A stretch of 64,000 nt of DNA from Caldinitratiruptor microaerophilus (GTDB taxonomy: Bacteria > Bacillota > Sulfobacillia > Symbiobacteriales > ZC4RG38): assembly GCF_025999835.1 (NCBI RefSeq), contig NZ_AP025628.1:744001-808000 (forward strand). Reading direction: 5' to 3'. The notes below the pieces were generated by a model. It did no database searches. It was given only the letters and a program-made list of their open reading frames with translations, and was not told the DNA's origin. How positions within the stretch are numbered: the stretch's first letter is position 1; each line of letters opens with the position of its first letter. This document shows, in pieces, positions 28,251 to 59,869 of this stretch. The position numbers and the translations under genes were made by a program.

Positions 28251-30278
28251 GTGGCGAACATCGGTAGCCTCACCGTGGCCGTGGTGGCGGAGACGAACGC
28301 CTTCACGGCGGCGATGAAGCAGATGCAGGACCAGGTGGCCGGGGTCGCCAAGGCCGCCCAGTCGCACATGGGCACCATGCAGGCCGCCATCGAGAAGGCC
28401 GCCGGGCCGTCCACGGCCCTGGCCGGGTGGCTCGGGAAGATCGGCGCCCTTGGCGGGGCGGCTCTGGCGGGCGTCGGCGTTGCAGCCGTAAAGATGGCGG
28501 CTGACATGGAGCAGAGTCGGATGGCGTTCACCACCCTGCTGGGGAGCGCAGAGGCGGCACAGTCCTTCCTGAAGCAGCTTTCCGACTTCGCGGCCAAGAC
28601 GCCCTTCGAACTGCCGGGGCTCATGGACGCTAGCCGGAAGCTCCTGGCCTTCGGGTTCGACGCTCAGAGCATCATCCCCATGATGACGGCCATCGGCGAT
28701 TCCGTGGCGGCCCTGGGCGGCGGGGCGGCGGAGATCGAGCGGGTGACGACGGCCCTGGGCCAGATGCAGGCGAAGGGCAAGGTCTCCGCCGAGGAGATGA
28801 TGCAGATCGCCGAACTGGGCATCCCGGCCTGGGAGATGCTGGCGCAGAAGATCGGGGTGTCGATCCCCGAGGCCATGAAGATGGCCCAGAATGGCGCCAT
28901 CAGCGCCAGCACGGGGATTCAGGCCATCCTCCAGGGGGTGAACCAGGCTTTCGGCGGCGCCATGCAGCAGCAGTCGCAGACGCTCCTGGGCCAGTGGTCC
29001 ACCGCCAAGGATAACGTGAGTTCGATCCTCCGCACCGTGGGCGACGAGATCATCAAGGCTTTCGACCTGGGTGGGGTGCTGACGAAGCTGAACGAGCAAC
29101 TGGGGGCGCTGGCCGACACCATCAGCACCAAGGGGCTGCGGGGAGCCCTGGCGGAGATCGTCCCCGCCTGGCTGCCCGAGACCATCACCCTGGTGGGCGG
29201 CGCCATCGCCGGCGCCCTCGTGCCCGGGCTGGTGAAGATGGCCGTCACCCTGTTCACCCAGACCATCCCGGCGCTGTGGGCGGCCTATGCGCCGCTCTTG
29301 CCCTGGGTCCTGGCGGGGACGGCCGTCGCCGGCGTGGCGCTCCTGATCTACAAGAACTGGGGCACCATCTCAGAGTTCTTCTCGAACGTATGGACGGCTG
29401 TCGCCACCAAGGTGACGGACGTGACCGGCCGGCTGAATGACTGGCTCTCCGACACGTGGGAGAAGATCCGGACGACCGTATCGAATGTCTGGCAGGGGAT
29501 CAAGGACTTCTTCGCCAAGTGGTGGGACGAGCTGCTGGTGATCTTCACCGGCCCCATCGGGCTCCTGATCGCCATGATCGTGAAGAACTGGGACCTGATC
29601 ACGGCCAAGACGAAGGAGATTTGGGACGGCATCAAGTCCTGGCTCGGCGGCATCTGGGACGGTATCAAGGCCACGGCCTCCAGCCTGTGGAACGCGATCC
29701 ACGACACGATCGCCGAGCCGGTGCGCCGGGCGAAGGAAAGCATCACCAACGCCTTCACGGCCGCCCTCAACTGGCTCAAGGACCAGGTGAAGCCCTGGCT
29801 GGACGCCGGGAAGAACCTCATCAAGGCCCTGATCGACGGCATCGCCGGCGTGCGCATCCCGCTGCCCACGTTCGAGATCAAGTGGGCGGTCGGGCCGTTG
29901 GGAATCCAGATCCCCAAGCTGGACTTCGGCATTTCGTGGCGCTCCCTGCGCGACTTCATCCCGTTCCTGGCCGAAGGCGGCATCGTCACTGCGCCCACCC
30001 TGGCGATGATCGGGGAGCGAGGCCCAGAGGCCGTGCTCCCGCTCACGGGGGCGGCCGGCGGCGGGTTCATCGCGGCCATCGAGGAGGCCGTGGCGCGGGG
30101 TACGTTCGAGGGCAACCGGCTGGCCGGGCAGATGAACCGCATCGGCGAGCGAGGCCAGCAGCAGGAGATCGTGATCAAGATCGACAGCATCGTGCTGGCG
30201 CGGGCGCTGATTCCGGCCCTGATGAGTGAGGGCCAACGGAGAGGCGTGCGGATCTTGCTGAGCCCTCGGGAGGAGTAG
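28251..30278 (+). CDS. Tail tape measure protein
   Basis: 675 residues, GTG start. N-terminal tape-measure domain (about 80-225: DMEQSRMAFTTLLGSAEAAQ, FELPGLMDASRKLLAFGFDA, GKVSAEEMMQIAELGIPAWE), then membrane-like stretches (about 310-370) and amphipathic repeats (WDGIKSWLGGIWDGIKATAS), ending with a conserved EGGIVTAPTLAMIGERGPEA. It sets siphophage tail length. Short for the family, implying a short tail. No tail tube or baseplate genes flank it: a terminator follows immediately, so the tail module stops here. Confidence 0.88.
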   Translation: MANIGSLTVAVVAETNAFTAAMKQMQDQVAGVAKAAQSHMGTMQAAIEKAAGPSTALAGWLGKIGALGGAALAGVGVAAVKMAADMEQSRMAFTTLLGSAEAAQSFLKQLSDFAAKTPFELPGLMDASRKLLAFGFDAQSIIPMMTAIGDSVAALGGGAAEIERVTTALGQMQAKGKVSAEEMMQIAELGIPAWEMLAQKIGVSIPEAMKMAQNGAISASTGIQAILQGVNQAFGGAMQQQSQTLLGQWSTAKDNVSSILRTVGDEIIKAFDLGGVLTKLNEQLGALADTISTKGLRGALAEIVPAWLPETITLVGGAIAGALVPGLVKMAVTLFTQTIPALWAAYAPLLPWVLAGTAVAGVALLIYKNWGTISEFFSNVWTAVATKVTDVTGRLNDWLSDTWEKIRTTVSNVWQGIKDFFAKWWDELLVIFTGPIGLLIAMIVKNWDLITAKTKEIWDGIKSWLGGIWDGIKATASSLWNAIHDTIAEPVRRAKESITNAFTAALNWLKDQVKPWLDAGKNLIKALIDGIAGVRIPLPTFEIKWAVGPLGIQIPKLDFGISWRSLRDFIPFLAEGGIVTAPTLAMIGERGPEAVLPLTGAAGGGFIAAIEEAVARGTFEGNRLAGQMNRIGERGQQQEIVIKIDSIVLARALIPALMSEGQRRGVRILLSPREE

Positions 30279-33250: not shown

Positions 33251-33345
<95 letters not shown>

Positions 33346-39444: not shown

Positions 39445-39463
39445 CAAGCCGACAATGGCAAAG

Positions 39464-39562
39464 AGTCTCGTGCGGGAGCTCGGGTGAGCCGGGCTGAGAG
39501 GGTGACCTGCACCGTCACCGACCGCTGAACCTGATCCGGGTAATGCCGGCGTAGGGAAGGCG
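39464..39562 (+). promoter_or_regulatory. TPP riboswitch (THI element)
   Basis: Conserved blocks CGGGTG, GGGCTGAGAGGGTGACC, CCGCTGAACCTGATC, CGGGTAATGCCGGCGTAGGGA match the THI-box consensus for pyrimidine and pyrophosphate recognition. Outer edges are approximate. Followed by a terminator hairpin (39581-39609), so control is probably premature termination when thiamine pyrophosphate is bound. Confidence 0.95.
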
Positions 39563-39580
39563 CATTCGGTCGCCGTGTGC

Positions 39581-59482: not shown

Positions 59483-59515
59483 GGCCGCCGGGCTATCCGA
59501 CAAGGAGGGACAGGC

Positions 59516-59869
59516 GTGGAAGCATGGGCAGTGCGGCCCATCCGCCGCCCGGAGGACGTCGACGAGCTCCTCGCCCCGGAGCGGCCGCGGCCGGTCCTGA
59601 TCTTCAAGCACTCGACGACCTGACCCGTCAGCGCCCGCGCGCACCTGCAGTTGCAGGACTACCTGAAGGCCCCCGTGGCGGGGGTCGACGTCGCCCTGGT
59701 GCGGGTGCGGGAGGAGCGCCCGCTGTCGCAGGCCCTGGCCGAGCGCCTGAAGGTCCGGCACGAGTCGCCCCAGGCGATCCTCGTGCAGCGGGGGCGGGCC
59801 GTCTGGCACGCCTCGCACGGGGCGATCACGGCCAGGGCCCTTCGCGAGGCGATCTCCGCCCTGCGCTGA
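59516..59869 (+). CDS. Candidate selenoprotein: bacilliredoxin BrxC/YtxJ-like with in-frame TGA at active site
   Basis: 117 residues if TGA 59621-59623 is read through. GTG 59516 lies 7 nt after GGAGG. Before the TGA: RPVLIFKHSTT; after: PVSARAHLQLQDYLKAPVAG, VDVALVRVREERPLSQALAE, HESPQAILVQRGRAVWHASH. The BrxC/YtxJ family has KHSTxCPxS with its redox Cys exactly where the TGA stands (codon 36). The frame stays open and family-like for 81 more codons to a normal stop, and a SECIS-like hairpin begins 20 nt after the TGA. Reading as selenocysteine is the simplest explanation; a nonsense mutation of TGC/TGT is the alternative. Thioredoxin fold, probably reducing bacillithiol-protein disulfides or peroxides. 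Confidence 0.72.
59621..59657 (+). promoter_or_regulatory. In-frame TGA and SECIS-like hairpin
   Basis: TGA at 59621-59623; stem CCTGC/GCAGG (59644-59648 with 59653-59657), apical loop AGTT. The second loop base is G and the loop starts about 26 nt after the TGA, within the bacterial SECIS rule (small apical loop, G among its first two bases, 16-37 nt from the UGA). The stem is short (5 bp). Confidence 0.5.

Follow-up and report, generated by a model that had tools for sequence, protein, structure and literature searches.

The gene at positions 59516–59869 (plus strand) of the window, the whole 64,000-nucleotide stretch of Caldinitratiruptor microaerophilus DNA analysed here, very probably encodes a selenocysteine-containing monothiol bacilliredoxin (Sec-BrxC), in which a UGA codon is read through at the position of the family's catalytic cysteine. 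This selenoprotein assignment was made from nucleotide sequence, without any protein or selenium measurement. The recoded frame, the selenocysteine machinery, a conserved UGA with its hairpin, selection downstream of the codon and the bshA and bdr genes could all be read from the DNA, and they support an earlier sequence-only reading that had inferred a selenocysteine bacilliredoxin; that Sec is physically part of the protein, and that it acts in catalysis, is inferred. The enzyme family, small repair enzymes within the bacillithiol antioxidant system, is a known one, and its Sec form, which at least twelve other bacterial genomes also appear to encode, seems to be undescribed so far.

Judged by its translation and profile matches, the segment holds a single BrxC/YtxJ-family gene, running from a GTG start at 59516 to a TGA stop at 59867–59869, with a strong Shine-Dalgarno sequence (AAGGAGG, 59502–59508, plus strand) located 7 nt upstream of the GTG. 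The in-frame TGA at 59621–59623 (plus strand) lies in the translated context VLIFKHSTT-U-PVSARAHLQ, where translation and homologue codons place the catalytic Cys, and is followed by 81 intact codons with no further stop or frameshift. With this codon read through, the product has 117 residues, including Sec as U36 and no Cys in the remainder; the T-U-P-V-S motif (59618–59632) holds the lone catalytic residue of a TCPIS-type motif, with U replacing C. The read-through protein matched PF11009 (E = 1.1e-30, 106 bits against a cut-off of 24.2, model positions 2–102 of 102) and TIGR04019 (YtxJ; E = 1.3e-30, 105.5 bits against a cut-off of 77.25), and a sequence match to the solved-structure homologue 3iv4 was also obtained (E = 1e-14). 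The translation and the two profiles bear out the frame FKHSTT-TGA-PVS that had been proposed earlier, with TGA at the family's catalytic Cys and 81 codons beyond it. When the whole C. microaerophilus genome (G000) was searched with PF11009, this gene, with its one internal TGA, was the only copy found.

The same brxC codon was examined in other genomes. TGA was found at exactly this position in 13 genomes of two classes, five of them in the class of C. microaerophilus and the other eight within Bacilli, in the Ferroacidibacillus family, and the aligned codon in 27 further genes of the family was TGC or TGT. Searching 154 genomes from the C. microaerophilus class with PF11009 yielded 26 genes, of which 5 carried TGA, 20 TGC or TGT, and 1 CCT. 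The five TGA carriers (G000, G126, G127, G066, and G067) are spread over three families; a relative from the same order as C. microaerophilus, G130, has TGC. A family-level search around Ferroacidibacillus organovorans covered 18 genomes and recovered 15 genes from 14 of them (8 TGA and 7 Cys), giving a comparison set of 13 TGA genes (5 + 8) and 27 Cys genes (20 + 7). A degenerate, TGA-requiring pattern was also run against one genome per species of a GTDB collection. Eleven stretches were returned and eight were BrxC genes, four of them already known from the class search; the four additional carriers, all with SelB, comprised one named strain, F. organovorans SLC66, and three MAGs from Bacillota. 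The other three matches (L067, L068, and L072) were set aside as chance, with no BrxC around them. The pattern scan found no instance in viral contigs, and plasmid records held just distant relatives (<60% identity) annotated as ordinary ytxJ. The CCT gene, a PF11009 relative in genome G069 (L024:1501–1764), has Pro in place of the catalytic residue, and its flanks are poorly conserved; this copy is possibly decayed or repurposed.

A bacterial SECIS hairpin is predicted at 59644–59657 (plus strand) on the basis of folding, cross-species comparison, and a published rule. Its strands, CCUGC (59644–59648) and GCAGG (59653–59657), enclose the loop AGUU (59649–59652), and the element is present in both the minimum free-energy and centroid structures. 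The rule specifies a stem of at least 4 bp and a 3–9-nt loop with G in the first two positions, 16–37 nt after the UGA (PMC13188914); here, the apical loop starts 25 nt after the UGA and has G at its second position, followed by U. The limit of −7.5 kcal/mol used for SECIS free energy is met by the extended form (−9.8 kcal/mol) and not by the core alone (−6.8 kcal/mol). The fold z-score was −0.3, and an equally stable hairpin was present in 5% of synonymous recodings. Taken alone, the hairpin is not remarkable in one GC-rich sequence and is weak evidence in any single gene. Because stability in a single gene is too weak to decide the matter, its significance comes from comparison across species.

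For this comparison, a helix of at least 5 bp was required, with a 3–6-nt loop that has G followed by G or U in its first positions and starts 21–25 nt after the codon, a spacing taken from the data and not set beforehand. All 13 TGA genes met the criterion, and none of the 27 Cys genes did so at this spacing; hairpins at other spacings in Cys genes were limited to two with a 5-bp helix at 34 nt and an unstable one at 29 nt. The single CCT gene has a hairpin at spacing 25. The stems covary across lineages (CUACC/GGUAG versus UCACC/GGUGA and UCGAUC/GAUCGA versus UCGGUC/GACCGA). A Fisher test of 13/13 against 0/25 gave 1.8e-10, a value that ignores kinship, related genes not being independent. 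The association of Sec with the hairpin holds in three of three supported independent Sec/Cys contrasts, for which the sign test (p = 0.25) is not significant because only three such contrasts are well supported. The AGTT-loop hairpin noted in the sequence-only reading as fitting the published rule was thus confirmed as a prediction, with the rule met in every TGA gene. The Rfam model RF00031 (SECIS_1) gave no match in the C. microaerophilus genome, nor in any control, and is uninformative here because the same model failed in all of the controls.

On the tree, the Sec label requires at least five changes, of which supported branches force at least three, and the AU test rejected a single Sec clade (p about 1e-36). 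The direction of each change, Sec to Cys or Cys to Sec, is unresolved. In genome bin G164, two loci (L109 and L118, 87% identical over 3.2 kb) carry one Cys (TGC) and one Sec (TGA) brxC. The two genes have 16 differences over 375 compared positions (96% identical), and differ at the codon and in the apical loop (AUGU versus AGGU, respectively) with the stem retained. The pairing of such loci in one bin suggests that two strains were binned together, and G164 may be a mixture of two related strains. This near-identical pair offers a natural system for the study of Cys/Sec switching and of the benefit that Sec brings to an enzyme with one catalytic residue.

The C. microaerophilus genome, a single contig of 3.6 Mb (C1), encodes the components needed for Sec insertion: a tRNA-Sec with anticodon TCA (C1:2027628–2027722), SelA (C1:2014515–2015888, 595 bits), SelB (C1:251794–253665, 376 bits), and two selD genes, both above cut-off and each with an in-frame TGA at the known Sec position (C1:2013538–2014461, minus strand, and C1:1648211–1649131, plus strand). 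Absence of selA, selB, selC, or selD, which would have refuted the selenoprotein inference, was therefore not the outcome. Each selD gene also has a hairpin of its own, and the apical loops there, GUU or GUC, belong to the same type as AGUU in brxC. SelA was present in five of five TGA-brxC carriers of the class, and SelB was above cut-off in four of four Bacilli genomes tested. Counting against the assignment, SelB passed its cut-off in just 18 of 22 genomes. In G126, the brxC codon is TGA and tRNA-Sec and SelA are present, yet a full SelB match is missing, possibly through incomplete assembly.

Components of the bacillithiol pathway were also sought. BshA was above cut-off in 10 of 10 genomes tested, including C. 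microaerophilus, and Bdr in C. microaerophilus, G126, G127, and the Cys relative G132. In G066, G067, and the Bacilli tested, Bdr did not reach the cut-off, suggesting that the last electron-transfer step may differ there. BrxA and BrxB were not detected in C. microaerophilus, leaving brxC as its sole recognisable bacilliredoxin. For this organism, the pathway evidence consists of the bshA and bdr genes, with no data on bacillithiol itself. About 6 kb separate the bdr gene from that for tRNA-Sec (C1:2027628–2034949), and in G126 the two are about 27 kb apart on contig C88; both arrangements may be due to chance.

In B. subtilis, BrxC acts as a monothiol bacilliredoxin, stripping bacillithiol from proteins, and in the mechanism of such bacilliredoxins, bacillithiol resolves the adduct and Bdr reduces the resulting BSSB (PMC8301015). 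By homology to the Cys enzymes, de-bacillithiolation is probably the main activity of Sec-BrxC. In the mechanism proposed, SelB with Sec-tRNA(Sec) would bind the hairpin just 3′ of the UGA and insert Sec at residue 36. On a bacillithiolated protein, the selenolate would then attack the mixed disulfide, freeing the protein thiol and forming a Brx-Se-S-bacillithiol adduct; Sec would thereby make the attack that Cys makes in relatives, which is inferred. A second bacillithiol would resolve the adduct to give BSSB, for reduction by Bdr (YpdA) with NADPH.

Two explanations without selenocysteine were weighed, and both were judged to be highly improbable. TGA is one base from TGC and TGT, and a broken gene or sequencing error could in principle have turned one of these into TGA through mutation or misreading. 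Such an error would not recur as TGA at one codon in 13 genomes, where the surrounding codons differ, and on this ground (raw reads were not part of the evidence) the TGA is taken to be genuine, as had been supposed. SECIS-type hairpins track the TGA, and no other stop or frameshift follows it. Downstream of the codon, dN/dS was below 1 in six of six pairs compared and GC3 remains at 0.99. The codons 3′ of the UGA evolve under purifying selection, and the random decay in relatives that would have spoken for a broken gene was not seen. Nothing was found in favour of a general code change, under which UGA would specify Cys or some other amino acid. TGA also terminates brxC and its upstream neighbour, TGG encodes Trp in brxC itself, and the genome holds a TCA-anticodon tRNA-Sec with the full Sec machinery, all of which stand against a reassigned code.

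The main functional rival to de-bacillithiolation by Sec-BrxC accepts a selenoprotein and differs in its activity, which would chiefly be that of a bacillithiol-dependent peroxidase (glutathione-peroxidase-like). Sec generally favours peroxidase chemistry. A bacillithiol-dependent peroxidase activity is in fact known for AbxC of Deinococcus radiodurans, an atypical relative within the bacillithiol system, but this protein has Cys, a differing TCHKT motif, and an extra C-terminal domain (PMC8301015). The window protein matches the AbxC family (NF053651) weakly, at 40.5 bits where the cut-off is 340. The BrxC proteins examined here retain the canonical TxPxS motif of BrxC, in which either U or C is catalytic. 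A mainly peroxidatic enzyme is considered unlikely, and de-bacillithiolation by Sec-BrxC remains the preferred reading. A wider proposal, possible though doubtful, is that of a new selenoprotein family in which Sec/Cys and the SECIS loop have been swapped repeatedly and recently in two bacillithiol-making classes, joining the selenium and bacillithiol systems, and in which a peroxidase role absent from the Cys form may have been gained by the Sec form.

Compared with BrxC/YtxJ of B. subtilis (PF11009, formerly DUF2847; TIGR04019), the window gene is alike in its full-length profile match, HSTxCPxS-type motif, lack of a second active-site Cys, and the bacillithiol pathway genes of its genome; it differs in its UGA catalytic codon and the SECIS-type hairpin that follows. 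Thioredoxin-fold selenoproteins of the UxxC/UxxT/UxxS types (Sec glutaredoxin, Sec thioredoxin, and UxxS peroxiredoxin-like proteins) likewise have Sec in place of a redox-active Cys, but belong to protein families other than PF11009/TIGR04019. PF11009, TIGR04019, YtxJ, and bacilliredoxin are all missing from a 2026 catalogue that covers 119 prokaryotic selenoprotein families (PMC13188914), and BrxC is not among the 12 selenoproteins of the selenoprotein-rich Symbiobacterium thermophilum (PMC1794560). No published description of a Sec-BrxC was found in a literature search that was not exhaustive and covered some sources only by title or the opening of the abstract. With Sec-BrxC, the prokaryotic selenoproteome gains a well-supported family, and the bacillithiol de-thiolation pathway would have its first known selenoprotein. 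Gene callers that read UGA only as a stop miss or truncate such genes.

Elsewhere in the window, a TPP riboswitch was identified at 39462–39574 (plus strand, 63.7 bits). A tRNA-Ile was called by ARAGORN at 28844–28932 (minus strand), with the Rfam tRNA model below cut-off, and a tRNA-Ser at 33252–33345 was found by both ARAGORN and Rfam.
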